The notes under the pieces: generated by a model
Told to the model about the DNA's origin: nothing
The model's input: only the letters and a program-made list of their open reading frames with translations
Database searches by the model: none
Assembly: GCF_010671595.1 (NCBI RefSeq)
Contig: NZ_JAABOP010000001.1
Span: 1,054,001-1,118,000, forward strand
Reading direction: 5' to 3'
From: Muriicola jejuensis
GTDB taxonomy: Bacteria > Bacteroidota > Bacteroidia > Flavobacteriales > Flavobacteriaceae
DNA length: 64,000 nucleotides
Made by a program: the position numbers and the translations under genes
Part shown: piece after piece, positions 935-45,557 of the stretch
Position numbering within the stretch: the first letter of the stretch is position 1
Layout of the letters: each line of letters starts with the position of its first letter

Positions 935-2323
935 TCAGTCCACACTCCTTTGCAGGGAGGTCTGTACTTCCCTCCTGAGAAAGTAGCCCGTCACCAGGGT
1001 AGAAAGGACATCTGCGATGGGAAAGGAAAGCCATACCCCCAATTCGCCAAAATATTTGGGAAGGATCAAGATAAGGGGAATAAAAAAGAATCCCTGCCTC
1101 GTGAGGGTGAGCAATAAGGCCGGTATGGCCTTTCCGACGGCCTGGAAATATGCAGCTCCTATGAGCTGTATTGCAATGATAGGCGTTGCCGCAAATACCC
1201 ATCGCATGGCCGGGGGTGTATTTTCCAAAACAAACAGATTACCGGCAATCTCTTCAGCGCCCATATCCGCTCGGTGGCTGAGGAACATCCCTGTGATCTC
1301 AGCCGGGAAGACCATCAGGCCGATAAAAACCAATGTGGCCACAACTGAAGCGTAGGTAATGGCAGTATTGATGGATTCCCTGACCCGCGGATACTTCCTC
1401 GCCCCGTAGTTATACCCCGCAATGGGCAGGAATCCCTGTGTCACCCCGAAGACCGGGAAGAGGGCAAACATGAGCATTCGGCCGATAATGGCGTAGACAG
1501 CCACCATGGATTCACCCCCGAGGTCAAAAAGGATATTGTTCATCAGCAGGTAGGTGACACTGGTTACGGCCTGTCTTGACAGGGTAACGAAGCCGAGTGA
1601 ACCGATCTCGCTGAGGATTGGGAGGTCGAGTCCGAAATGAGTCACGTCGATCTTCAGCTCGGAATTTTTGGAGAGAAAGAAATACAGGATATATCCAAAA
1701 CAAAGAAGATAGCCCCCCGTAGTAGCCCAGGCTGCCCCTTCCATCCCCCAATCGAATATATAGATGAACACGTAGTCCATCACGAGGTTTCCCACGGAAG
1801 GGATGATCATGGCGATCATCGCGAATTTCGGCTTGCCTTCGGCTCGAATAACCGTATTCCCCATCATACACAAGGCCAGAAAGGGAACCCCGTAGAGGAC
1901 GATGGTGTAGTAGATCTTGGCTGGTTCGAAAATAGCGCCTTTTCCCCCGAATGCCGGGATCAGATCATTGGCAAAATACAGGCCAAAGCCCACCATGGTG
2001 ATCGTCACCAGGAGGGTAAGCGTGATCTGGTTTCCAAAGGTTTTCAGGGCCTTCTCCGTGTGATTGGCCCCCAGCGCACGTGAAATGATGCTGCTCCCGC
2101 CTATCCCTATGGCCATACCCAGGGCGGCGATAAAGAAAGAGACCGGTAAGACCACATTGATGGCGGCTATGGCGATGGAGCCGATCCAGTTTCCTACAAA
2201 AATGGTGTCGACCAGGATGTTCAGGGACATGACCAGGATCCCGATAGAAGCCGGCACTGCCTGCCTTATCAGGAGCCTTCCGATGGGTTCTGTACCCAGA
2301 TCATCCGCGGTGACCCTGGCCAT
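935..2323 (-). CDS. MATE family efflux transporter
   Basis: 462 residues with about twelve hydrophobic segments in two halves, as in MatE proteins (Na+ or H+ coupled exporters of cationic drugs and metabolites). The N-terminal region (PIGRLLIRQAVPASIGILVM, then FVGNWIG) matches the first MatE helices, and GIGGSSIISRALGA is the typical loop after helix 2. It resembles the MepA/DinF-like branch of Bacteroidota. The ATG overlaps the hemH stop by one base (TGATG), so the two genes are probably co-transcribed and translationally coupled. Whether it exports haem precursors or is only a neighbour of hemH cannot be read from the sequence. Confidence 0.85.
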   Translation of the reverse strand: MARVTADDLGTEPIGRLLIRQAVPASIGILVMSLNILVDTIFVGNWIGSIAIAAINVVLPVSFFIAALGMAIGIGGSSIISRALGANHTEKALKTFGNQITLTLLVTITMVGFGLYFANDLIPAFGGKGAIFEPAKIYYTIVLYGVPFLALCMMGNTVIRAEGKPKFAMIAMIIPSVGNLVMDYVFIYIFDWGMEGAAWATTGGYLLCFGYILYFFLSKNSELKIDVTHFGLDLPILSEIGSLGFVTLSRQAVTSVTYLLMNNILFDLGGESMVAVYAIIGRMLMFALFPVFGVTQGFLPIAGYNYGARKYPRVRESINTAITYASVVATLVFIGLMVFPAEITGMFLSHRADMGAEEIAGNLFVLENTPPAMRWVFAATPIIAIQLIGAAYFQAVGKAIPALLLTLTRQGFFFIPLILILPKYFGELGVWLSFPIADVLSTLVTGYFLRREVQTSLQRSVD

Positions 2324-3354
2324 CAGACGGGAAGGATGTGTTCAGTTTGCCAGTCGCGTATCCAGGAAGCCATAAGGGCGACCCAGTCGTCCCTTTCATT
2401 GAGACAGGGGATATGTTTGTAATGCTCTCCGCCTGCTTCCTCGAACTGTTCTTTTCCTTCCATCGCGATCTCCTCCAGTGTTTCCAGACAATCACTTACA
2501 AAGGCCGGAGTGACCACAATCAGCCTTTTTTTCCCTTCTTTTGCCAGCCTTTCAAACTCGTAGTCTGTGTAGGGCTTTAGCCATGGGTCACCGGCCAGAC
2601 GGGATTGGAAGGAAGTGCTCACCTTATCTTGGGGAAGACCGAGGGCTTCCACGACGAGGTCGGTGGTCTTGTAGCACTGGTGCCTGTAACAGGTATGATG
2701 GGCCACAGAATTCACCTTGCAGCAGCTCCCGTCTATCTTGCAGTGAAAGCGGGTTGGGTCTGATTTGCGGATATGGCGTTCCGGGATGCCGTGGTAGGAA
2801 AACAGCACATGGTCGTAATCAAAATCCTCCAGACCTTCTGCTATACTCCTGGACAGCACCCGGATGTAATCGGGGTTGTGGTAGAATGCAGGGAGCGTGG
2901 TGACCTTTATGGAAGGGAAGTGCTTCTGTTGCTCTTCCAGGGCCTTTACGACCACGGTCTCGTAGGAAGACATGGCGTAATGCGGATACAAAGGCACAAG
3001 TAATACCTCATCCACGCCTTGGTCTGCCAGTTCCTGAAATGCCTTTCTGATGCTCATGCTTCCATATCGCATCCCCAGGGCTATTGGGAGGTCTGTCTGA
3101 GCCCTCACCTTTACAGCAAAGTGTTCTGAGATCACGATCAGGGGAGAACCTTCCTCCCACCAAATTTTCTTGTAGGCCTTGGCCGATCTCTTGGGCCGGG
3201 TTTGCAGGATAATCCCCCGAACCAAAATATTGCGGAGGATCTTTGGCACATCGATGACGCGCTCATCCATGAGGAACTCGTCCAGATAGGGTTTGACGTC
3301 CTTGGCGGTAGGGCTGTCCGGGGAACCCAGATTCACTAATAAAACTCCTTTCAA
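2323..3354 (-). CDS. hemH: ferrochelatase
   Basis: 343 residues; inserts Fe2+ into protoporphyrin IX, the last step of protohaem synthesis. The N-terminus MKGVLLVNLGSPDSP and the signature SYHGIPERH (His188 as catalytic base) are diagnostic, and SRLAGDPWLKPYTD near 251-264 and FVSDCLETLEEI near 285-296 are the conserved C-terminal blocks. Directly after the signature five cysteines lie close together (205, 211, 212, 222, 227), a possible internal Fe-S site. The start is TTG at 3354: no in-frame ATG exists nearby and the homologous N-terminus begins exactly there. An out-of-frame ATG-CTT-TGA (3359-3351) overlaps this TTG. Confidence 0.95.
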   Translation of the reverse strand: MKGVLLVNLGSPDSPTAKDVKPYLDEFLMDERVIDVPKILRNILVRGIILQTRPKRSAKAYKKIWWEEGSPLIVISEHFAVKVRAQTDLPIALGMRYGSMSIRKAFQELADQGVDEVLLVPLYPHYAMSSYETVVVKALEEQQKHFPSIKVTTLPAFYHNPDYIRVLSRSIAEGLEDFDYDHVLFSYHGIPERHIRKSDPTRFHCKIDGSCCKVNSVAHHTCYRHQCYKTTDLVVEALGLPQDKVSTSFQSRLAGDPWLKPYTDYEFERLAKEGKKRLIVVTPAFVSDCLETLEEIAMEGKEQFEEAGGEHYKHIPCLNERDDWVALMASWIRDWQTEHILPV

Positions 3355-3376
3355 AGCATAATTTTTTTTACACGCT

Positions 3377-3384
3377 CAAAAATA
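3377..3384 (-). promoter_or_regulatory. -7 box in front of hemH
   Basis: TATTTTTG on the minus strand fits TAnnTTTG exactly and lies 22 bases before the hemH TTG start. No good TTG is found at the -33 spacing, so the box alone supports the call. Confidence 0.35.
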
Positions 3385-3518
3385 CTACTTGTACCTCAAC
3401 TGGCCAGCAGAGTCCTTCATTACTTTCTTTATTTTAAAATAGAGAATGCTGATTCCCCATGGTATTAAGGTGATTGTTCCGTAATTTCCAAACCTGTCAA
3501 CCGAAAACCATTTTCCCA

Positions 3519-4589
3519 ATGAGAGATGAAATCATGAAAATCCCTTCGAACACTTCTCTTTTCTATGTCTTTGGAGGGTTACTATTACTGGTGCTGACCT
3601 ATTTTGCCGCGGTCATCCTGCTCAGGCGGCTGGGCAAAGACCCTCAGAACCTATTGCCCCCGGACACGATGAAGAAGGTTTCCCTTCCCCTGATCTTTAT
3701 CCTTTTTTCCTTTCTTCTGAGGATGGGTTCTCTTCGGGAGTTACTGGGATTGGATGACTACGGTTATATCTTCCGCAAATCGAGCACCCTCCTCTTTATC
3801 TTTTCATTTACCTGGCTTCTGATCAAGGTGATCAAACTCGTCAAGCAACTGGTGATACAGAATTACGACGTGAGTTCCACTGACAATCTCAAGGCCCGCA
3901 AAGTGTACACCCAGTTCACCATCCTGGAGCGAATCTTCATCTTCATTATTACCATCATGGCCCTGGGTATCGCGTTGATGAGCTTCGAGGAGATCCGGGA
4001 AATAGGGATCAGCATTTTTGCCTCGGCGGGGGTTGCCGGGATCATTATCGGTTTTTCAGCCCAGAAGATGATAGGGGCTATTTTAGCGGGGATACAGATC
4101 GCCCTTGCCCAGCCGATCAAAATTGACGACGTTGTGGTCGTGGAAGGGGAATGGGGCCGGATCGAACAGATCACCCTGACGTATGTGGTGGTTGCGATCT
4201 GGGACAAAAGGCGACTGGTCTTACCGACGACCTATTTTATCGAAAAGCCCTTTCAGAACTGGACCAAAACTACGGCGGACATCCTGGGGACCGTCTTCCT
4301 GTATACGGATTATCGCCTCCCAATTGAACCCTTGAGGGAAGAACTCGGGCGAATTCTGAAAAATACCGACCTGTGGGATGGGCAGACTCAGAACATACAG
4401 GTGACCAATGCCACCGGAACACATGTTGAGATCAGGGCGCTGATGAGTGCAAAGGATTCCCCCACCGCCTGGGACCTGAGAGTACACGTACGTGAAAAAC
4501 TGATCGCCTTCTTACAGGAGAACTACCCCAATTGCCTGCCCCACACCAGGGTATTCATAAATGATGAATTTTCCAAACAAGAGAAATAA
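3519..4589 (+). CDS. mechanosensitive ion channel, MscS family
   Basis: Small-conductance mechanosensitive channel of the inner membrane, releasing solutes on hypo-osmotic shock. About five membrane segments precede the pore helix region (GISIFASAGVAGIIIGFSAQ, then MIGAILAGIQIALAQPI), followed by the MscS beta domain (IKIDDVVVVEGEWGRIEQI, then LPTTYFIEKPFQNWTK) and a C-terminal alpha/beta domain. Two starts are plausible: ATG 3519 (MRDEIMKIPSN) and ATG 3534 (MKIPSNTSLFYV); an earlier TTG at 3474 is less likely. The extra N-terminal helices make it larger than E. coli MscS (286 residues), as usual in Bacteroidota. Confidence 0.88.
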   Translation: MRDEIMKIPSNTSLFYVFGGLLLLVLTYFAAVILLRRLGKDPQNLLPPDTMKKVSLPLIFILFSFLLRMGSLRELLGLDDYGYIFRKSSTLLFIFSFTWLLIKVIKLVKQLVIQNYDVSSTDNLKARKVYTQFTILERIFIFIITIMALGIALMSFEEIREIGISIFASAGVAGIIIGFSAQKMIGAILAGIQIALAQPIKIDDVVVVEGEWGRIEQITLTYVVVAIWDKRRLVLPTTYFIEKPFQNWTKTTADILGTVFLYTDYRLPIEPLREELGRILKNTDLWDGQTQNIQVTNATGTHVEIRALMSAKDSPTAWDLRVHVREKLIAFLQENYPNCLPHTRVFINDEFSKQEK

Positions 4590-9307: not shown

Positions 9308-9981
9308 ATGCCGTCCTTTCAACACGTAGCCTTGAAAAAGCACAGCAAACCCGTCTGGCCAAAGCAGGTATTGAAGTTGAATGTTACGATGCTATCCGTT
9401 TTGAATTCACTGAGGTCACCCTCCCTCAAGGCTTTGACCATTTGATCTTTACCTCCAAGAACGGGGTTAAGGGATTCCTCAACAATCTGAAGACAGAAAC
9501 CGGACTGAAAAAGAAACTTGCCTGTTATTGCGTGGGTGAAAAAACCAGAGCCTATTTGATTGAAAATGGCTTTTTTGTTGCTAAAATGAGTCAGAATTCA
9601 GCAGATTTAGGTGATTTTCTGGTAAATACTGGTGAAAAAGGACCTTTTTTGATTTTTACCGGGAACCGGAACAGGCCTGAATTGAAAGAGAAGTTCGAGG
9701 AAAACGGGATCCCTTTTAAGGAACTAATGGTCTACCAGACCCACAGTGTCCCTAAAAAGTTAGGGAAGAAATTCGATGGAATCCTCTTTTTTAGCCCGAG
9801 TGGCGTACAGAGTTTTATAGCGGCCAATGGCCCTCAGAATGCCACCGCTATCTGCATAGGGGAAACGACCGCAGAAGAGGCCCGCAAGCATTTTCAGCGG
9901 GTAGCTGTGGCGGATACGCCCACTACAGATCACGTTATTGACAAGCTCATTGAGATTAACCCAACCCTTGCAAACACATAG
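9304..9981 (+). CDS. hemD: uroporphyrinogen-III synthase
   Basis: 225 residues; closes hydroxymethylbilane to uroporphyrinogen III with inversion of ring D. The family is poorly conserved, but [55 protein letters not shown] and [14 protein letters not shown] show the two-domain HemD fold. The ATG overlaps the hemC stop (ATGA), and its place between hemC and hemE supports the call. Length is slightly short for the family (about 240-260). Confidence 0.9.
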
Positions 9982-9983
9982 TT

Positions 9984-11015
9984 ATGGCACTTAAAAACGA
10001 CCTCCTTTTAAAAGCCCTCAGGGGTGAAACCGTGGAAAGGCCCCCCGTCTGGATGATGCGGCAGGCCGGAAGGTACCTCCCGGAATTCATGGAGCTCAAA
10101 AAAAAGTACGATTTCTTTACGCGTTGTCAGACGCCAGAGCTGGCATCCGAGATAACAGTACAACCCATCCGTCGCTATGGGATGGATGCGGCCATCCTGT
10201 TCAGTGACATCCTTGTCATCCCACAGGCCATGGAGATCGAAGTGCAGATGAAACCCGATTTCGGGCCTTACCTGCCAGACCCCATACGTTCCCGGAAGGA
10301 TCTGGACCGGGTGGTGGTTCCCGATGTGGAGGATAGCCTGGGCTACGTGATGAAGGCGATCAGGATGACGAAGGAAAAGCTGGCGGATGAAGTACCCCTC
10401 CTGGGTTTTGCGGGTTCGCCCTGGACCATCCTTTGCTATTGTGTTCAGGGACAAGGCAGCAAAAGTTTTGACAAGGCCAAGGAATTTTGCTTTACACAAC
10501 CGGAAACGGCCCATGCCCTCCTGCAAAAAATAACGGATACCACTATTGCCTACCTGAAGGCAAAAGTAAGAGCAGGGGTAGACGCCGTTCAGGTCTTCGA
10601 TTCCTGGGGCGGGATGCTATCCCCCGAAGATTATGAAATATTTTCGTGGCCGTATATCCAGCAGATCGTGGATGCCCTAAAGGATGAGACCTACGTGATC
10701 GTCTTTGGGAAAGGTTGCTGGTTCGCCCTGAAGACCATGTCCCGATCAGGGGCCGCCGCCCTGGGGGTAGACTGGACGTGTTCCGCCCAGAATGCCCGTT
10801 ATCTCAGCGGGGGCAAGATCACCCTTCAGGGTAATTTTGATCCTTCCCGCCTGTTCTCCCCACCGGATGAGATCAGGAAGATGGTCACACAGATGATCCG
10901 AGATTTTGGAAAGGACAGGTACATTGTGAATTTGGGCCATGGCATCTTACCGACGGTCCCCCTGGAAAATGCTCAGGCATTCATAGAGGCGGTGAAATCC
11001 TATTCGGAGGGGTGA
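9984..11015 (+). CDS. hemE: uroporphyrinogen decarboxylase
   Basis: 343 residues; decarboxylates the four acetate side chains of uroporphyrinogen III to give coproporphyrinogen III. Signature blocks: [16 protein letters not shown] near residue 19, [11 protein letters not shown] (catalytic Asp) near 75-85, and [11 protein letters not shown] near 140. [13 protein letters not shown] and the C-terminal [11 protein letters not shown] are also present. Two bases separate it from hemD, and its TGA overlaps the GTG start of the next gene. Confidence 0.96.
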
Positions 11016-36823: not shown

Positions 36824-36853
36824 AAAAATCCCGGCCAATTGGCCGGGATTTTT
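36824..36853 (-). terminator. strong intrinsic terminator after the DUF2480 gene
   Basis: A perfect 30-bp palindrome whose arms are AAAAATCCCGGCC and GGCCGGGATTTTT around AATT. On the minus strand it starts at the TAA of the DUF2480 gene and ends in a T run; on the plus strand it could also stop hflX transcripts, as the T run continues on both sides. Confidence 0.85.
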
Positions 36854-37720: not shown

Positions 37721-38143
37721 TCAATTTAATTGGGTTTGGTAGGCCACGGCATACAGTTTTAACTGCTTGATCATGCTTACGAGTCCGTTGGCACGGGTGG
37801 GCGAAAGGTGTTCCTTTAACCCGATCTCATCGATGAATTTCGTGTCGGCCTCAATGATATCCCTGGGTTTCTGGTGGCTGAACGCCCGTATCAATATGGC
37901 TATGATCCCCTTGGTGATGATGGCATCGCTGTCTGCGGTAAATACCAGCTCATCCCCTTCCAGTTCGGCATGCACCCAGACCTTGCTCTGGCAGCCTTTG
38001 ATAATATGGTCCTCAGTCTTGTATTCTTCTTTGATCAGAGGCAGGGATTTCCCCAGTTCGATCATATACTCATACCGCTGCATCCAGTCGTCGAACATGG
38101 AAAACTCTTCTACGATCTCCTTTTGTATCTCTGGTATGCTCAT
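37721..38143 (-). CDS. sufE: cysteine desulfuration protein SufE
   Basis: 140 residues from ATG 38143; takes persulfide sulfur from SufS and passes it to SufB. The acceptor cysteine is in EDHIIKGCQSKVWVHAEL (Cys51), and the family end SPTRANGLVSMIKQLKLYA is present. The frame is open further upstream (to 38224), but a full promoter (38160-38190) lies in that region, so the shorter start is preferred. Its own promoter separates it from sufS. Confidence 0.93.
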   Translation of the reverse strand: MSIPEIQKEIVEEFSMFDDWMQRYEYMIELGKSLPLIKEEYKTEDHIIKGCQSKVWVHAELEGDELVFTADSDAIITKGIIAILIRAFSHQKPRDIIEADTKFIDEIGLKEHLSPTRANGLVSMIKQLKLYAVAYQTQLN

Positions 38144-38260: not shown

Positions 38261-39487
38261 TCAGACGAGCATTTGCCTGGCCCGTTCCAGGGCTTCCGCA
38301 AAGCGGTCTATTTCTTCTTTGGTATTGTAAAAACTGAAGCTCGCCCTGATGGTACCCGGGATCTGGAAGAAATCCATCACGGGCTGAGCACAATGGTGGC
38401 CGGTACGCACGGCGATCCCCATTTTATCCAGCAGGGTACCCATGTCATAGGGGTGTACCCCCCGGATGTTAAAGGAAATGACGGCCGTCTTCTGTTTTGC
38501 TTTCCCATAGAACTGCATCCCTTCTATTCGGGACAGTTTTTCGGTAGCATAGGCCAGGAGTTCATGCTCGTACCGGTCAATGGCCTCCAGCCCTATGGAA
38601 TTGAGGTAGTCTATGGCCGCCCCAAAAGCGATCCCTCCACAAATGTTGGGGGTACCCGCTTCAAATTTATAGGGCAGGTCTGCATAGGTGGTCTTCGCAA
38701 AGGTCACCTCGGCGATCATCTCGCCCCCACCCTGGTAGGGTGGCAATTTCTTCAGCCATTCTTGTTTCCCGTACAACATCCCTATCCCGGTTGGACCGTA
38801 CAGTTTGTGAGCCGATGCCGTGTAGAAATCCACATCCAGCCTTTGTACATCCACCTTCAGGTGGGGGGATGACTGGGCCCCGTCTACCAGAACCGCTGCT
38901 CCGACCTCATGGGCCATGGGGATGATCTCTTCTATAGGGTTGATGGTGCCCAGGGCATTGGAGACGTGGTTGCAGACCACCAGTTTGGTCTTGTCAGACA
39001 ACAGGTTTTCATACTCCTCCATGACTAATACGCCATCCTGATCCATGGGGATCACCTTCAATACGGCCCCGGTGCGCTCACAGAGCATCTGCCAGGGCAC
39101 GATGTTGGAGTGGTGCTCCATGGCCGAAACCAGGATCTCATCCCCTTTTCCGACAAAGGCGGTAAAACCATTGGCTACCAAATTGATGCTGTGGGTGGTC
39201 CCGGAGGTAAAGATGATCTCGTGGGCGTGGGCAGCGTTGAAGAACTGCTGTATCTTCTTTCTGCCTCCTTCGTAGGCTTCCGTGGCCTCCTGGGCCAGGG
39301 CGTGAACCCCCCGGTGGATGTTCGCGTTATACCGGCTGTAGTAATCCACGATGGTGTCGATCACCTGTTTGGGCGTCTGGGAGGTGGCTGCATTGTCAAA
39401 ATAGACCAGTGGATTTCCATTCACCTTCCTGTTGAGGATGGGGAAGTCCTTTCTTATTGTGGCTATATCGAGCATTGTTTTTTCCAT
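38261..39487 (-). CDS. sufS: cysteine desulfurase SufS
   Basis: 408 residues from ATG 39487; PLP enzyme that takes sulfur from cysteine for Fe-S clusters. PLP lysine in YTASAHKLYGPTGIGMLYGK, catalytic cysteine in AVRTGHHCAQPVMDFF, and the N-terminal VYFDNAATSQTPKQV are all typical of the SufS (group II) type. A later ATG (39475, MLDIATIRKDF) is also possible. It is the only suf gene separated from sufD by unrelated genes (three barrel paralogues) and has its own -7 box six bases upstream. Confidence 0.95.
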   Translation of the reverse strand: MEKTMLDIATIRKDFPILNRKVNGNPLVYFDNAATSQTPKQVIDTIVDYYSRYNANIHRGVHALAQEATEAYEGGRKKIQQFFNAAHAHEIIFTSGTTHSINLVANGFTAFVGKGDEILVSAMEHHSNIVPWQMLCERTGAVLKVIPMDQDGVLVMEEYENLLSDKTKLVVCNHVSNALGTINPIEEIIPMAHEVGAAVLVDGAQSSPHLKVDVQRLDVDFYTASAHKLYGPTGIGMLYGKQEWLKKLPPYQGGGEMIAEVTFAKTTYADLPYKFEAGTPNICGGIAFGAAIDYLNSIGLEAIDRYEHELLAYATEKLSRIEGMQFYGKAKQKTAVISFNIRGVHPYDMGTLLDKMGIAVRTGHHCAQPVMDFFQIPGTIRASFSFYNTKEEIDRFAEALERARQMLV

Positions 39488-39493
39488 GACACA

Positions 39494-39501
39494 CAAAGAT
39501 A
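39494..39501 (-). promoter_or_regulatory. -7 box immediately before the sufS ATG
   Basis: TATCTTTG, exact TAnnTTTG, six bases upstream of ATG 39487 on the minus strand. No good -33 element. It suggests a short-leader transcript for sufS in addition to read-through from upstream. Confidence 0.45.
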
Positions 39502-39582: not shown

Positions 39583-40158
39583 TCAAAACCGCACCCCGAT
39601 CCCCATTTTTAGTAAACTGGCATTGCCGTAAAAGTCTCCAGGTATTGCGATATGGTCGAACTGTACTTTGAGGAACCAGTCCCTGAAGACGTCCATGCTG
39701 GCCCCAACATTTAGGTTGAATCCCCCTCGCGTATCAGATCCATCCAAGGGTTCAGACATGAACGTTCCTTTTGCCTTGTATCTTTGCCAGGAATATCCAA
39801 CTCCAAGAGACCATCTCAATTTTTCGATTCCCGGAGTTTCCGTCTCGAGGAAGAAGCGGGGCTGAATGAAAAGATCGCTTTGGCGGAAATCGTATTCCAT
39901 TTCCCCGTTTGCACTTCCGGTCGTAAATTGCGTTCGGGAAGCAAAAAGGGAGGTGTTAAACGATCCCCCAAGTTTTAATCTTCCGACCTCAGCGAACCTG
40001 TATTGGACCCCGAGATCGAGAATTCCCCTGCCGTCGTTCGCAAATTCATTGCCCACAGAGACCGGATAACTAGTTTCGATGCTCCAGGCCTCGTCCTGGG
40101 CACTCAGGGTGTAGCCAAACAATACAAAAAGGAAGGGAAAGAGTAGTTGTTTTCTCAT
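39583..40158 (-). CDS. outer membrane beta-barrel protein, tandem paralogue A
   Basis: 191 residues with a signal peptide (MRKQLLFPFLFVLFGYTLSA, then QDEAWSIE). Strand pattern: YPVSVGNEFANDGRGILDLG, VQYRFAEVGRLKLGGSF, FIQPRFFLETETPG, LRWSLGVGYSWQRY, GFNLNVGASMDV and the C-terminal LKMGIGVRF. Aromatic end and length indicate a small eight-stranded outer-membrane barrel. It is the third of three tandem relatives (with 40264-40824 and 40884-41453) and the most diverged. It lies between sufD and sufS, reading in the same direction. Confidence 0.8.
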   Translation of the reverse strand: MRKQLLFPFLFVLFGYTLSAQDEAWSIETSYPVSVGNEFANDGRGILDLGVQYRFAEVGRLKLGGSFNTSLFASRTQFTTGSANGEMEYDFRQSDLFIQPRFFLETETPGIEKLRWSLGVGYSWQRYKAKGTFMSEPLDGSDTRGGFNLNVGASMDVFRDWFLKVQFDHIAIPGDFYGNASLLKMGIGVRF

Positions 40159-40263
40159 GATGGTGTTGTTTTTGGAGTTTATTAAGGGTTATGTTTAAAG
40201 TTGAAAAATAAATACATGGCCGAGGGCTGGGTGATTTGGGTTTTCCGTTGGGCCATAGACCGG

Positions 40264-40824
40264 CTAAAATCGGAATCCCCCACGCAGTTTAAGGAAGCCG
40301 GAATTCCCATCTACTGCCTCCCCGGATAAAAAGGGTTGGTCGAATGAAGACTGTATGCGGAGATTGGGGGTAACGTCATAGATCAGCCCGGCATCCAGAT
40401 TCAGCCCGTCTGCCCAGGCATCCCCACCCTGCAGGCGCCCGTTCTCATCAAAGAAAGTCGGTTTCCCTCTGGAATATAGCCAGGCCCATCCCACACCTCC
40501 GGTGAATGATAAATTCCCGTTCCGGGTAAGTGGAACTTCAGCAAAAAGCCTGGGCTTAAAAAAGTATTCCTGGTATTCGCCCTCCTGGTCTGGTCTGAGG
40601 GTTGTGGCAAAGCGGGAGCCATCCGCCGACAGTCCGAAAGTGACCTTTCCCACCTGTACAAACCGGTAATTAACCCGCAATCCTAGCGTCCCCTCATTGG
40701 ATAAGGCAAAAGGATGGTTGAAGGAAATGGGATCAATCACTTCAATGCTCCATGTATTTTCCTGGGCCCTTTGCGTTAAGCTCATAAACATAGCGAGAAT
40801 TGGAATAAGTAGTTGTTTTCTCAT
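40264..40824 (-). CDS. outer membrane beta-barrel protein, tandem paralogue B
   Basis: 186 residues with a signal peptide (MRKQLLIPILAMFMSLTQRA, then QENTWSIE). It shares with paralogue C the blocks NEGTLGLRVNYRFVQVGKVT, DGSRFATT, FFKPRLFAEVPLTRNGNL, GGVGWAWLYSRG and ADGLNLDAGLIYDVTP, and ends LKLRGGFRF. By eye it is closer to C than to A, although its signal peptide start (MRKQLL) is shared with A, which hints at mosaic exchange among the copies. Ligand unknown. Confidence 0.8.
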   Translation of the reverse strand: MRKQLLIPILAMFMSLTQRAQENTWSIEVIDPISFNHPFALSNEGTLGLRVNYRFVQVGKVTFGLSADGSRFATTLRPDQEGEYQEYFFKPRLFAEVPLTRNGNLSFTGGVGWAWLYSRGKPTFFDENGRLQGGDAWADGLNLDAGLIYDVTPNLRIQSSFDQPFLSGEAVDGNSGFLKLRGGFRF

Positions 40825-40883
40825 GGTCAGGGTGTTTTATGTTAGAGGTTGCTAATGCCTTTAGGAAGAGATTCTCCGGAAGG

Positions 40884-41453
40884 TCAGAATCGGAATCCTC
40901 CTCCCACCTTGATCAGGCCGATATTCCTGTCTGAGGCAACCCCTGATAAAAACATGAGATCGTATTGAGTTTGTACAAAGATACTCGGGGTGATATCGTA
41001 CGTCAGCCCGACATTCAGGTTCAGGCCATCTGCCCATTCTTCCCCTCCCTCAACTCGTCCGAACTCATTTAAGAAAGCCACTCCTCCTTTGGAATACAAC
41101 CAGGTCCACCCTATACCTCCGGATAAACGGAACTTTCCGTTTTGCGACAACGGTACTTCTGCAAAAAGCCTGGGCTGGAAAAAGAAATCCCGGTATTTTA
41201 ATTCCTGAACCGGGTCGGAATCATTGATTACGGTGGTGGCAAAGCGGGTCCCATCCAATGAAACTCCCAAAGTAAACTTTCCCTCCTGTACAAAGCGATA
41301 TTTGACCCCAACTCCTATCGTCCCCTCGTTCGAGGAGGGAAAGGCATCGTTGACGGAAACGGGGTAGCTGACTTCAATGCTCCATTTTTTGTCCTGTGCA
41401 CTGGTAGAAAGCACACATACAAGTAGTAGTACGCAAGTTATGGATCGAATCAT
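40884..41453 (-). CDS. outer membrane beta-barrel protein, tandem paralogue C
   Basis: 189 residues from ATG 41453, with a signal peptide (MIRSITCVLLLVCVLSTSA, then QDKKWSIE). Shared blocks: NEGTIGVGVKYRFVQEGKFT, DGTRFATT, FFQPRLFAEVPLSQNGKF, GGIGWTWLYSKG, ADGLNLNVGLTYDITP, C-terminus KVGGGFRF. It is the first of the three after sufD, about 100 bases downstream of its stop. A hairpin GCTTAG/CTAAGC (41468-41488) lies in its leader. The frame is open to 41495 but the signal peptide fixes the start. Confidence 0.8.
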   Translation of the reverse strand: MIRSITCVLLLVCVLSTSAQDKKWSIEVSYPVSVNDAFPSSNEGTIGVGVKYRFVQEGKFTLGVSLDGTRFATTVINDSDPVQELKYRDFFFQPRLFAEVPLSQNGKFRLSGGIGWTWLYSKGGVAFLNEFGRVEGGEEWADGLNLNVGLTYDITPSIFVQTQYDLMFLSGVASDRNIGLIKVGGGFRF

Positions 41454-41553
41454 GGCTGAGTTTTTTGGCTTAGTTTGATTTCCTAAGCTAATCAACCATT
41501 CTATCCACCTCTTTTAAAAGAAAGTTAATTAAGAATGTTTTAGCAGAATTCCC

Positions 41554-42870
41554 TTACAGGTCGAACCCAAGCCTTACGCCCAGCTTGTTGGCGATGAGCT
41601 TGTTGATCCGTTTTTTCAATTCGGGCAGGCGCACACTCTCCAGTACGTTGTTCGCAAAGGCGTACATAAGAAGTGCGGTAGCCTCTTTGCGGGGGATGCC
41701 CCTCGACTGGAGGTAGAACAAAGCGTCCTCATCCAGCTGGCCTATGGTACAGCCGTGGGAACACTTCACATCATCCGCAAAAATCTCCAGCTGGGGCTTT
41801 GTATTGATGGTAGCCTGGTCGCTGATCAGCACATTGTTGTTCTGCTGAAAGGCGTTGGTCTTCTGGGCGATCTTATCTACGATGATCTTCCCGTTGAACA
41901 CTCCTGTAGAACGTTCCCCGAATATACCTTTGTAATCCTGATGGCTTTCGCAATTAGGCTGGGTGTGGTGCACCAGGGTATGGTGGTCTACGTGCTGTTT
42001 TTCTCCCAGGATGGTCACCCCTTTGAGGGTCGATTCAATATGTTCCCCGTGCTGGTAGAAGTTGAGGTTGTTTCGCGTGAGTTTACCCCCGAAGGAAAAG
42101 GTGTGTACGTTCACCGAACTCTTGTCTTTCTGGGCGATATAGGTATTGTCGATCAGTGTGGCATCCTCGCTGTCATTCTGTACCTTGTAATAATCCACGA
42201 TAGCGCTTTGTGCGGCGAAGATCTCGGTGACACAATTGGTCAGGACCGGATTATGGGTTAGGCTCTGATGCCTTTCGATGACCTGGAGTTCAGCATTCTC
42301 CTCGACAATGATGAGGTTCCTGGGCTGCAGCATGAGAGAGGCCTCGTTCCCGGTGGCGAAATGTATGATCTCAACCGGTTTTTTAGGGGCTTTGTTCTTT
42401 GGAATATAGATGTAAGCGCCCTCCCGGCTAAAGGCCGTGTTCAGGGTAGTGAGTGACTCCTCCCTGGAAGCCGCCTTATTGAAATATACGTCTATGACCT
42501 GTTTGTACATCGGCTTGGTAAGGGCAGAGCTCATCAGGCAGATATCGACCCCGTCATGGGTGGTCTCCGAGAGATAGGAGCTATAGATCCCGTCGATGAA
42601 CACGATCTTGTAGGTGTCGATCTCATGGAGGAAATACTTCTTTACCTGATGGTACTCCAGGGCATTCTCCTCCTTGGGGAAGATGCTGAAGTCGGTTTTC
42701 AGGATACTGTTCAGAGAAGTGTATTTCCAGGCTTCTTCCTTTTTGGAAGGGAATCCTTTGGCCTCAAAATTCTTGATCGCCTCGGTCCGAATATCGTGAA
42801 TGGGGTGTTCCACATCCACGTAGTTCTCGAAAGCCATGAAGGACGATACCAGTTTTTCCTTTAGATCCAT
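41554..42870 (-). CDS. sufD: Fe-S cluster assembly protein SufD
   Basis: 438 residues; scaffold partner of SufB in the SufBC2D complex. N-terminal helical part, then the parallel beta-helix (EENAELQVIERHQSLTHNP, RNNLNFYQHGEHIESTLKGV) and the C-terminal block DDVKCSHGCTIGQLDEDALF, YLQSRGIPRKEATALLMYAF, which is diagnostic. It lies 48 bases after sufC. The nearest downstream genes are the three barrel paralogues rather than sufS. Confidence 0.95.
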   Translation of the reverse strand: MDLKEKLVSSFMAFENYVDVEHPIHDIRTEAIKNFEAKGFPSKKEEAWKYTSLNSILKTDFSIFPKEENALEYHQVKKYFLHEIDTYKIVFIDGIYSSYLSETTHDGVDICLMSSALTKPMYKQVIDVYFNKAASREESLTTLNTAFSREGAYIYIPKNKAPKKPVEIIHFATGNEASLMLQPRNLIIVEENAELQVIERHQSLTHNPVLTNCVTEIFAAQSAIVDYYKVQNDSEDATLIDNTYIAQKDKSSVNVHTFSFGGKLTRNNLNFYQHGEHIESTLKGVTILGEKQHVDHHTLVHHTQPNCESHQDYKGIFGERSTGVFNGKIIVDKIAQKTNAFQQNNNVLISDQATINTKPQLEIFADDVKCSHGCTIGQLDEDALFYLQSRGIPRKEATALLMYAFANNVLESVRLPELKKRINKLIANKLGVRLGFDL

Positions 42871-42918: not shown

Positions 42919-43671
42919 TTATGCTACCGTTTCTTTCTTCAGCCAGTCGTATCCCTTGTCTTCCAGCTCCAGGGCCAGTTCTTTGGTGCCCGACTTAACG
43001 ATCTTCCCGTCGTGGATCACGTGCACAAAATCGGGGATGATGTATTCCAGGAGACGCTGATAGTGGGTGATCACGATCACTGCGTTGTCCTTGCTCTTTA
43101 ATTTGTTGACCCCGTTGGCCACGATTCGGAGCGCATCGATATCGAGGCCGGAATCCGTCTCGTCAAGGATGGCGAGCTTGGGCTCGAGCATAGCCATCTG
43201 GAAGATCTCATTCCTCTTCTTTTCTCCTCCCGAAAAACCCTCATTCAGAGAACGGGACAGGAACTTCCTGTCTATGTCCAGCAATTCGGATTTCTCCCGG
43301 ATCAACTTCAGCATCTCGTTGGCAGGCATATCGTCCATACCCCTTGCCTTTCGGGATTCGTTGATGGCTGTTTTCATGAAATTGGTCACGGAGACGCCGG
43401 GTATTTCCACCGGGTACTGGAAAGAGAGAAAGATCCCCTTGTGGGCGCGTTCTTCCGGAGACACCTCTTCCAGGTCTTCTCCTTCAAAGTTGATAGAGCC
43501 TTTGGTAATCTCGAAGTCTTCCTTCCCTGCAATAACCGATGCAAGGGTACTTTTTCCGGAACCGTTAGGTCCCATTATGGCGTGCACTTCCCCGGGTTTT
43601 ACCTCCAGGTTGATCCCTTTCAGGATTTCCTTATCCTCTACTCCGGCATGCAGATCCTTAATTGTCAACAT
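42919..43671 (-). CDS. sufC: Fe-S cluster assembly ATPase SufC
   Basis: 250 residues; ABC-type ATPase that drives the SufBCD scaffold. Walker [10 protein letters not shown] (34-42), signature [10 protein letters not shown], Walker [17 protein letters not shown]. The ETDSGLD block is typical of SufC. 35 bases downstream of sufB. Confidence 0.97.
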
Positions 43672-43706: not shown

Positions 43707-45152
43707 TTATCCTACTGAGCCCTCCAGGCTGATCTCCAGTAATTTCTGAGCTTCCACGGCAAATTCCATGGGAAGTTTATTCAGTACTTCCTTGCTGAAC
43801 CCATTGACGATCAGGGCGATGGCCTTTTCGGTATCGATCCCCCTCTGGTTGCAGTAGAAGATCTGATCTTCCCCGATCTTGCTGGTGGTCGCCTCGTGTT
43901 CTACCTGTGCTGTTTTGTTCTTCGCCTCTATGTAGGGAAAGGTATGTGCCCCGCACTCGTTCCCCATCAGGAGGGAATCGCACTGGGAAAAGTTCCGGGC
44001 GTTCTCGGCCCTGCTGTTGATCTGTACAAGACCCCTGTAGCTGTTCTGGGATTTTCCGGCGGAGATCCCTTTTGAAATGATCGTACTCCTGGTGTTCTTT
44101 CCGAGATGGATCATCTTGGTACCCGTATCGGCCTGCTGAAAGTTGTTCGTGACCGCGATGGAGTAGAATTCCCCAATGGAATTATCCCCTTTCAGAATAC
44201 ATGAAGGATATTTCCAGGTGATAGCAGATCCGGTCTCCACCTGTGTCCATGAGATCTTTGCATTGCGCTCGCAAATGCCCCTCTTGGTCACAAAGTTGTA
44301 AACCCCGCCTTTTCCTTCCTTGTCTCCCGGGAACCAGTTCTGAACGGTGGAGTACTTGATCTCGGCATCGTCCAGGGCGATGAGTTCCACCACGGCAGCG
44401 TGCAATTGGTTCTCGTCCCTGGAGGGGGCTGTACATCCTTCGAGATAGCTCACATAGCTTCCCTTATCTGCTATGACCAGGGTCCGTTCGAACTGCCCGG
44501 TCCCAGCTTGATTGATTCTGAAATAGGTCGAGAGTTCCATGGGGCACCTCACCCCTTTCGGGATATAACAGAAAGATCCGTCTGAAAAGACCGCAGAATT
44601 CAGGGCCGCGTAAAAATTGTCCTTGGGAGGTACCACAGAACCGATGTATTTCCTGACCAGCTCAGGGTGTTCTTTGATAGCCTCAGAGATGGAACAAAAG
44701 ATGATCCCTTTCTCGGCTAGCGTCTTTTTGAAGGTAGTAGCTACGGAGACTGAATCCATAACGATATCCACCGCCACTCCAGCGAGTTTTTTCTGCTCGT
44801 CCAGGGAGATCCCCAGTCTTTTGAAGGTGTCGAGCAATTGCGGGTCTACTTCGTCCAGGCTGTTGTACTTGGGCTTTTTGTTTGGTGCCGAATAATAACT
44901 GATGTCCTGAAAATCTGGTTTCTTGTAGTGGATATTGGCCCACTCAGGCTCCACCATTTCCTTCCAGCCTTTGTAGGCTTCGAGTCTCCACAGGGTCATC
45001 CATTCGGGCTCTTCCTTCTTTTTGGAAAGGGCTATCACCACCTCCTCACTCAGTCCCTTGGGAAATGTGTCCGACTCTATGTCCGTATAGAAACCATATT
45101 CGTATTCTTTGGTCTCCAGTTCTTTCTTTAATTCTTCCTCAGTATATGCCAT
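43707..45152 (-). CDS. sufB: Fe-S cluster assembly protein SufB
   Basis: 481 residues from ATG 45152 ([10 protein letters not shown]); main scaffold on which the cluster is built. Blocks: [16 protein letters not shown] near the N-terminus, [53 protein letters not shown] and [21 protein letters not shown] near the C-terminus. The upstream open frame to 45194 overlaps the spacer to sufA and is not preferred. It is 17 bases downstream of the sufA stop. Confidence 0.96.
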
Positions 45153-45169: not shown

Positions 45170-45499
45170 TTAAAGGGAGAAACTCTCTCCGCAACCGCAG
45201 GTACGCTGGGCGTTCGGATTGTTGAATACAAATCCCTTCCCGTTGAGTCCGCCCGAATATTCCAAGGTGGTTCCCACCAGGTAGAGAAAACTCTTTTTAT
45301 CGACGAGGATGCGCACGTCATTGTCCTCGAAGATCTTGTCGGTATCGTTGATCTGGTTGTCGAACCTGAGCTCATAGGACAGGCCGCTGCAACCTCCGCT
45401 CTTGACACCCACCCGCACGTAGTCTTTGGAGAGGTCGAATCCCTCCTCTGTCATAAGGGCGGTCACCTTTTTTTTAGCCGTTTCTGATACTTTGATCAT
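45170..45499 (-). CDS. sufA: SufA/HesB-type Fe-S carrier protein
   Basis: 109 residues from ATG 45499; A-type carrier that receives clusters and passes them on. The three conserved cysteines are in [15 protein letters not shown] (Cys37) and RTCGCGESF (Cys101 and Cys103). The frame is open to 45616, but the promoter (45528-45557) lies within that part, so the short form is right. First gene of the suf cluster. Confidence 0.95.
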
Positions 45500-45527: not shown

Positions 45528-45557
45528 CAAATATACACTAAATGCGGGGGATTCAAA
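45528..45557 (-). promoter_or_regulatory. promoter of the suf operon
   Basis: TTTG (45554-45557), 18-base spacer, TATATTTG (45528-45535) on the minus strand: both elements exact. The leader to the sufA ATG is about 22 bases and contains the octamer TCTAAATA (plus strand 45515-45522), shared with the inverted repeat near the AraC gene. Confidence 0.65.

Follow-up and report, generated by a model that had tools for sequence, protein, structure and literature searches.

Small outer-membrane barrel genes at a probable turnover slot between sufD and sufS in Flavobacteriaceae

Introduction

For genomic hotspots without mobile elements, homologous recombination has been proposed as the route of exchange (2017; PMC5635113, in the portion of that paper available to us). 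Insofar as that portion describes them, these hotspots resemble the sufD–sufS junction analyzed herein (hereafter, the slot) in having variable cargo between conserved core genes, in that no integrase-like gene was noticed, and in the recombination-like tract found in a flanking core gene. The slot is unlike them in that one to three cargo genes lie inside the gene cluster of a single core pathway, in that the cargo is coupled to the promoter of the next gene, and in that the pattern is one seen across genera. Cargo turnover between conserved flanks, a criterion by which hotspots are recognized, was observed at sufD–sufS.

As for gene expression, F. johnsoniae promoters are described in the available portion of PMC6847099 as having a -7 box, TAHHTTTG, a transcription start 4–5 nt downstream and a weak -33 element. 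In the accessible parts of the literature on suf in Bacteroidetes and Flavobacteriaceae, on Muriicola suf and on barrel hotspots, nothing was found on this slot, and the word suf was not found in the accessible part of the F. psychrophilum transcription map (PMC9723704).

The closest described counterparts of B1, the first slot protein of the DNA studied here, are the OmpA transmembrane domain, OmpW, NspA and OmpX/Ail, which have in common with it the eight strands, the leader peptide and the terminal Phe, whereas the identity between these chains and B1 is 10–19%. At the family level, B1, like slot ORFs from L018, L022 and other loci, passes a cut-off for Pfam PF13505 (OMP_b-brl) and PF13568 (OMP_b-brl_2), which are broad superfamilies with no stated function, and the other two slot proteins, B2 and B3, score below the PF13505 cut-off.

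Here we describe the suf locus in a window of 64,000 nucleotides (the whole stretch of DNA that was analyzed) from Muriicola jejuensis, together with the corresponding loci of its relatives. We propose, with a probability of roughly 0.7, that the sufD–sufS junction is a turnover slot for small surface-barrel genes at a transcription-unit boundary, and that these genes are exchanged partly by recombination.

Results and Discussion

Organization of the suf cluster in the window

On the minus strand, the genes run in the order sufA, sufB, sufC, sufD, B1, B2, B3, sufS, sufE, a DUF59-type (FeS_assembly_P) gene and a DUF2480 gene. As the preliminary description of this DNA had claimed, three paralogous ORFs of the same strand fill positions 39583–41453 between sufD and sufS, which was confirmed by the ORF list, Pfam and an own-genome search. 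The features are as follows.

45528–45535, minus strand: sufA -7 box, TATATTTG; a TTTG lies 22 nt upstream of it, starting at 45557
45170–45499, minus strand: sufA-like A-type carrier gene (PF01521)
43707–45152, minus strand: sufB (ORF and SUFBD_core match in the own-genome search; start at the ATG of MAYTEEE)
42919–43671, minus strand: sufC (Pfam ABC_tran)
41554–42870, minus strand: sufD, upstream flank of the slot (Pfam SufBD_core, 295 bits)
41483–41490, minus strand: TAGCTTAG, degenerate -7-like box and candidate promoter, 37 nt before B1
40884–41453, minus strand: B1, type I barrel with signal peptide, 189 aa (Pfam, model, structure comparison)
40264–40824, minus strand: B2, paralogue of B1, 186 aa (body B1-like, signal-peptide end B3-like)
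39583–40158, minus strand: B3, more diverged paralogue, 191 aa (ORF, own-genome search, tree)
39494–39501, minus strand: sufS -7 box, TATCTTTG, without TTTG in the 30 nt upstream
38261–39475, minus strand: sufS, downstream flank of the slot (Pfam Aminotran_5, 519 bits; proposed start at the ATG 18 nt past the box)
37721–38143, minus strand: sufE, directly after sufS (PF02657; start at the ATG of MSIPEIQ)

The own-genome search with B1 matched B1, B2 and B3 at 100, 55 and 37% identity, respectively, and found no further copy in this genome. Just past the DUF2480 gene, a GC-rich, perfectly palindromic sequence flanked by A/T (36824–36853) could be a two-way terminator of the suf cluster. Far from suf, a weak type II (PorT-like) barrel match was noted on the minus strand at 607–852 (G000:C11:1054607-1054852).

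B1–B3 resemble eight-stranded outer-membrane barrels

A hydrophobic N-terminal leader ending in AQ and a final RF were read by eye from the translations of all three proteins; the signal peptide and the C-terminal aromatic residue expected of eight-stranded outer-membrane barrels were present in each. Against PF13505, B1 scored 36.5 bits, above the curated cut-off of 28.7, and B2 and B3 scored 18.7 and 26.6 bits, both below it. The barrel type assigned in the preliminary description, eight-stranded, holds for B1, the one protein modeled: its AlphaFold model, built from 12 sequences, had eight strands (mean pLDDT 84.6, pTM 0.74). The best structural neighbors of this model were the OmpA transmembrane domain, OmpW and NspA (Z 16.8–17.5), with 1bxw at the top (Z 17.5, 152 aligned, rmsd 2.7), and Foldseek placed Ail first with OmpX and OmpA close behind. 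A profile search against solved structures gave two chains at E ≤1, namely 2i52 (E 0.0021) and the designed barrel 9fdg (E 0.91). B1 was rejected as OmpA proper, as the model ends at strand 8 without the C-terminal peptidoglycan-binding domain; no Pfam match to a peptidoglycan-binding domain was found in B1, B2 or B3, and no TonB-receptor or other uptake domain scored above its cut-off in the three proteins.

Across 24 slot rows, the per-zone variability, calculated with gaps treated as one letter, was 2.6–2.9 bits in the four presumed outer loops, 1.1–2.1 in the strands and 1.7–2.3 in the inner turns. The dN/dS ratio between B1 and its G002 orthologue was 0.13–0.15, and B1 is under purifying selection. 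B1–B3 look like functional, surface-type barrels, and the slot proteins are most likely surface-exposed eight-stranded barrels with diversifying loops, which would act in adhesion, envelope integrity or contact with phages or predators rather than as Fe-S factors.

The preliminary description had also suspected exchange of signal peptides among the copies, and the informative sites bear this out for B2 and B3. In the first 60 nt of B2, 21 sites are common with B3 and 2 with B1, whereas the rest of the gene has 46 in common with B3 and 149 with B1; the excess in the prefix (Fisher 2e-10) was reached in none of 20,000 permutations. In the tree, B2 was joined to B1 (96/57, not starred), then to the G002 barrel (99/90) and then to the G008 barrel (100/100), with B3 beside these four (100/96). 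The prefix sites and the tree placement thus indicate that B2 is a copy in which a body resembling that of B1 is joined to a signal-peptide end resembling that of B3, and that B3 is the older branch.

Patchy occupancy of the slot among relatives

From the longer list given by a SufD search, the best 80 named Flavobacteriaceae loci were taken, of which 79 had sufS in reach. These 79 are the nearest SufD relatives and no random draw, and the incidence figures refer to them alone; 12 further loci, G002 and G008 joined the set because they hold barrels. The junction was filled (gap >300 bp) in 23 of the 79 named loci and empty in 56. All 23 filled slots held at least one small outer-membrane barrel: type I (the B1 family) occurred in 10, one of them a fragment (L041), type II (PF13568, PorT-like) in 17, and both in 4. 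No opposite-strand ORF >150 aa was found in the filled named slots, and inspection by eye of filled sufD–sufS slots revealed no integrase-like gene.

Empty and filled loci lie side by side within the window's own genus, in which the junction was readable in 8 of 9 genomes and empty in 4 of these 8. Over the whole set, L045 and G007 were left out, as their junctions were not readable. The slot was empty, with a gap of 12–25 bp, in G006, G004, G003 and G001; G002 and G008 carried one type I barrel each, G005 one type II barrel, and the window three of type I. The nearest relative by SufD (95%) is G006, one of the empty ones, and the near sisters G002 and G005 hold different barrel families.

A 92-row tree was built from SufB, SufC and SufD, whose genes may themselves recombine; on it, parsimony required 17 changes for occupancy, 13 for type I and 14 for type II, with gain not told from loss and with 11 rows besides the window included because they hold barrels. 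Three record labels disagreed with this tree: taking L075, L086 and L065 in the order in which they are listed, 'Algicola' fell with Allomuricauda/Muricauda, 'Cytophaga sp. FL35' with Euzebyella, and 'Flavobacterium sp. ASW18X' with Croceivirga.

A predicted sufS promoter that accompanies filled slots

The motif TAnnTTTG was counted from -120 to +15 of each suf gene after removal of the duplicates L113 and L149. It was found before sufA in all 87 loci, before sufB in 0/89, sufC in 3/93, sufD in 1/94, sufE in 3/92 and the DUF59 gene in 1/92, and before sufS in 35/94. The upstream hits of the DUF2480 gene (30/88, within 120 nt) lay at scattered positions, some of them probably inside the preceding gene.

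The sufS box occurred in 31 of 36 filled but in 4 of 58 empty loci (Fisher 2e-15), and in 18/23 versus 4/56 when the named loci alone were counted; in the genus, as read by eye, it was present in all four filled and in none of the four empty loci. Counted per hit, 34 of 36 boxes lay at one place (the -10 bin). The bases searched amounted to 3353 in empty and 5220 in filled loci. With 10% per 145 bp as the background rate, chance hardly accounts for a box at the fixed position in 30/36 versus 4/58 loci. The four empty loci with a box were L026, L032 and L039, which have gaps of 133–202 bp, and L046 (56 bp). Among the five filled loci lacking an exact box, L031 and L041 were one base off, and in L075, L077 and L091 the barrel abuts sufS.

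An in-frame ATG followed the box at a single spacing (18 nt) in 31 of 34 loci, a count that includes three empty loci and the duplicate pair L113/L114, which suggests that sufS of the window starts at 39475. The window's box has no -33 TTTG, an element that is weak in F. johnsoniae anyway (PMC6847099, in the portion available). The -7 box that the preliminary description had assigned to sufS stands, at 39501–39494, with the boxes of relatives at that place far above chance, and its remark that transcription seemed to need restoring there agrees with the concentration of the box in filled loci.

Slot barrels mostly fall in one clade per family

A type I match at E ≤1e-10 was obtained in 52 of 397 Flavobacteriaceae genomes. 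Among the ORFs examined, 11 of the 12 that scored >190 bits sit between sufD and sufS, and below 190 bits L126, L128, a fragment in L115 and a broken copy in L149 were in the slot and the others elsewhere; as slot members supplied most or all of the sequences behind profiles A3 and A4, these high slot scores are partly circular, and the tree is the better test. In the type I tree (61 rows, after ORFs ≤150 aa or ≤60 bits and one duplicate, L024 = L108, had been dropped), the 24 slot rows and two others formed one starred clade (98/91), and the slot label needed 3 changes versus 19 in shuffles. Random positions in relatives, which the preliminary description had named as evidence to the contrary, were not what we observed, as the type I slot barrels fall in one clade. 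Its two non-slot members were L129, in an unrelated neighborhood, and L111, whose barrel lies near relaxase- or mobilization-looking ORFs and a serine recombinase (1419–4090 and 9692–10555, by eye), which suggests carriage by a mobile element.

For type II, a 95/97 branch set off 21 of 22 slot rows plus a single outsider on a long branch; the non-slot rows come from eight genomes only, and the slot barrel of Bizionia L091 was separate from the other slot rows. As to a distant kinship of type I and type II barrels, a comparison of their profiles gave a probability of 88 over only 58 columns.

Probable exchange of the slot and adjoining sufS sequence

In sufB, sufC, sufD, the 3' end of sufS and sufE, G008, which has a filled slot, falls with G003 and G004, whose slots are empty. 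The first ~690 nt of its sufS, however, contain a stretch siding with the filled-slot G005 (54 excess sites) and a shorter one siding with the filled-slot G002 (42 excess sites), each reached in none of 5000 permutations, as against 1242/5000 for the control G003. A test of the window against G006 gave a weak signal (136/5000). The tract is patchy: per 200 columns, the sites that G008 shares with G003 and G005 were 12:24, 19:9, 6:45, 16:15, 35:7 and 25:11, and sufS1 of G008 is equally close to both (0.83 each). In the 150 bp before sufS, G008 and G005 are 89% identical, compared with 45–53% in the other pairs. G005 has a block of its own towards G008 (21 excess sites, 0/5000), and thus either direction of exchange fits. 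Both assemblies are fragmented: that of G008 has 340 contigs, 74% completeness and 2% contamination, and that of G005 has 400 contigs, 93% completeness and 9% contamination. The simplest reading of these sequence patterns is that the slot content, the sufS promoter and part of sufS were swapped by homologous recombination.

The same data bear on vertical inheritance, according to which the slot was filled once in the ancestor of the clade and emptied by many later deletions, the barrels merely adjoining a core operon and exchange not being needed. One main clade per barrel family would fit such a history, as would the patchiness of the G008 tract and the sufS box retained in the four empty loci L026, L032, L039 and L046, as deletions would leave it. 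We nevertheless consider it unlikely in view of the foreign-looking sufS tract beside the filled slot of G008 with its 89% upstream identity to G005, the different families in the near sisters G002 and G005, and the slot-clade barrel of L111 near mobilization-looking genes and a serine recombinase. The turnover of surface genes at the slot probably proceeds in part by DNA exchange between species.

Inserts at other suf junctions and in the wider order

The preliminary description had assumed that suf genes run without unrelated inserts, which proved wrong for this clade, in which gaps >300 bp occur at several junctions. Counted over the 79–80 named loci, the window and two further loci of its genus that had come to light through their barrels, such gaps were found at sufA–sufB in 5/80, sufB–sufC in 33/81, sufC–sufD in 7/83, sufD–sufS in 26/82, sufS–sufE in 14/80, sufE–DUF59 in 0/80 and DUF59–DUF2480 in 4/76 loci.

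In many loci, a lipoprotein-like gene of ~290 aa lies at the sufB–sufC junction (Pfam assigns the copy at L022:5295-6167 a metallo-beta-lactamase fold), in place of which Lacinutrix, Algibacter and kin have a ~139-aa lipoprotein-like ORF. In several loci, sufS and sufE are split by an M43-type metalloprotease gene (Pfam, L094:9605-11156 = G002) and a small lipoprotein-like gene, and ORFs similar to these two were seen in the wider family too. Genes of the 23S_rRNA_IVP type occur at three suf junctions in several genera, including sufA–sufB and DUF59–DUF2480 (L061:6590-6952 by Pfam, others by eye). The notion that only envelope genes enter suf operons was rejected, given these four-helix-bundle genes in suf loci and the GNAT- and methyltransferase-looking ORFs seen by eye in suf loci of the wider order.

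For the order as a whole, 40 stretches were taken from 72 sufD places outside the window's own genome, and sufS was in reach in 23 of them. Among these 23, 17 were compact (gap <300 bp) and 6 had gaps >700 bp, which hold opposite-strand ORFs (L159, L161, L163, L164) or same-strand ORFs that look by eye like methyltransferases (L173, L176); no ORF in these 6 filled junctions was recognized by eye as a barrel. Independent insertions into a permissive gap, with no barrel-specific cause and with other genes able to land there too, would account for these 6 stretches and for the separate barrel of Bizionia L091. Since the clade structure leaves only about three entries to explain among the surveyed loci, each of them by a barrel, we judge this explanation to be quite improbable.

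Predicted transcription of the barrels and the question of an iron link

The exact motif TAnnTTTG was rare before the first slot ORF (3/35 loci; 35 of the 36 filled loci were scanned, L091 being left out because no slot ORF of 100 aa was found). Within -60 to -20 of the first type I barrel, a relaxed motif, TAnnTTnG, was present in 12 of 16 loci, its position ranging from -30 to -43, although it had been picked after the alignment was viewed and the count is not independent; the controls were sufB 0/93, sufC 4/96, sufD 2/97, sufE 13/94 and shuffles 11%. No such box precedes B2 or B3.

In 8/35 loci, the window not among them, a terminator-like site was found in the stretch that separates sufD from the first slot ORF. 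Between the slot barrel and sufS, the scan scored a terminator in 1/35 filled loci (L112), and L109 and L117 were recognized by eye; in the window, the scan found none after B3, so that read-through into sufS is possible there. Counts of sigma-70-type promoters (7 found versus 9.1 expected) and of terminators (8 versus 11.0) were uninformative. Judged from these predictions, the barrels may form their own transcription unit with a box unlike that of suf, with read-through possible, and the sufD–sufS junction looks like a transcription-unit boundary. The promoter prediction argues against co-regulation of the barrels with suf.

The link to Fe-S demand or uptake raised in the preliminary description was not supported, as 56 of the 79 named slots are empty and two barrel families alternate, the degenerate box of the first type I barrel differs from the exact sufA and sufS boxes, and two members of the clade live elsewhere, one of them beside mobilization-looking genes; no positive evidence for an Fe-S or iron role of the barrels was obtained. 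That the barrels are an envelope arm of SUF, induced with it under iron or oxidative stress for compound uptake or envelope protection, is consistent with the attachment of the slot-type clade to one locus over many genera, with the lack of any slot ORF >150 aa against the direction of suf in the filled named loci, with purifying selection on B1 and with possible read-through from sufA in the window, but is highly improbable considering the barrel-free majority of the named loci, the second family that takes the place, the -7-like box unlike the exact suf boxes, the two clade members located elsewhere and the lack of a TonB-receptor or uptake domain above its cut-off in B1–B3.

Proposed model and its implications

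The data show the gene content of the slot, the clade of its barrels, its patchy occupancy, the tie between the sufS box and filled slots, a mosaic sufS in one relative, purifying selection on B1 and the B2/B3 mosaic; transcript boundaries, the direction of gain and loss, the joint movement of cargo and promoter, and protein function are what we infer. The slot would operate in Muriicola, Maribacter, Euzebyella, Cellulophaga and kin as follows. The sufABCD genes would be transcribed from the sufA promoter, and the barrel or barrels would constitute a cargo distinct from them, transcribed from a weak promoter, through read-through from the suf genes, or both. Transcription of sufS, sufE and the later genes would come from another promoter, of sigma-A type, located 18 nt upstream of the sufS start. 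Because sufS would have its own promoter, it would not be silenced whether cargo is gained, is duplicated (the case of the window), gives way to the other family or is lost. Homologous recombination, in which the conserved suf genes serve as arms, could carry cargo and sufS promoter from one species to another.

A turnover slot as such is of a known kind; the unusual part is that the promoter of the downstream gene comes and goes with the cargo. It is conceivable, and we offer it tentatively, that the slot acts as a portable unit, consisting of a surface barrel and a promoter that keeps sufS expressed, whose gain splits suf into sufABCD and sufSE, each under independent control, and whose loss fuses them again. 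If this is true, a recombining surface-gene cassette would repeatedly rewire the control of Fe-S cluster assembly across genera. The turnover slot would illustrate how the gene cluster of a core pathway can acquire and shed surface genes and still stay intact, and would link cargo turnover to regulatory change of a core operon; a single genus contains both filled and empty loci.
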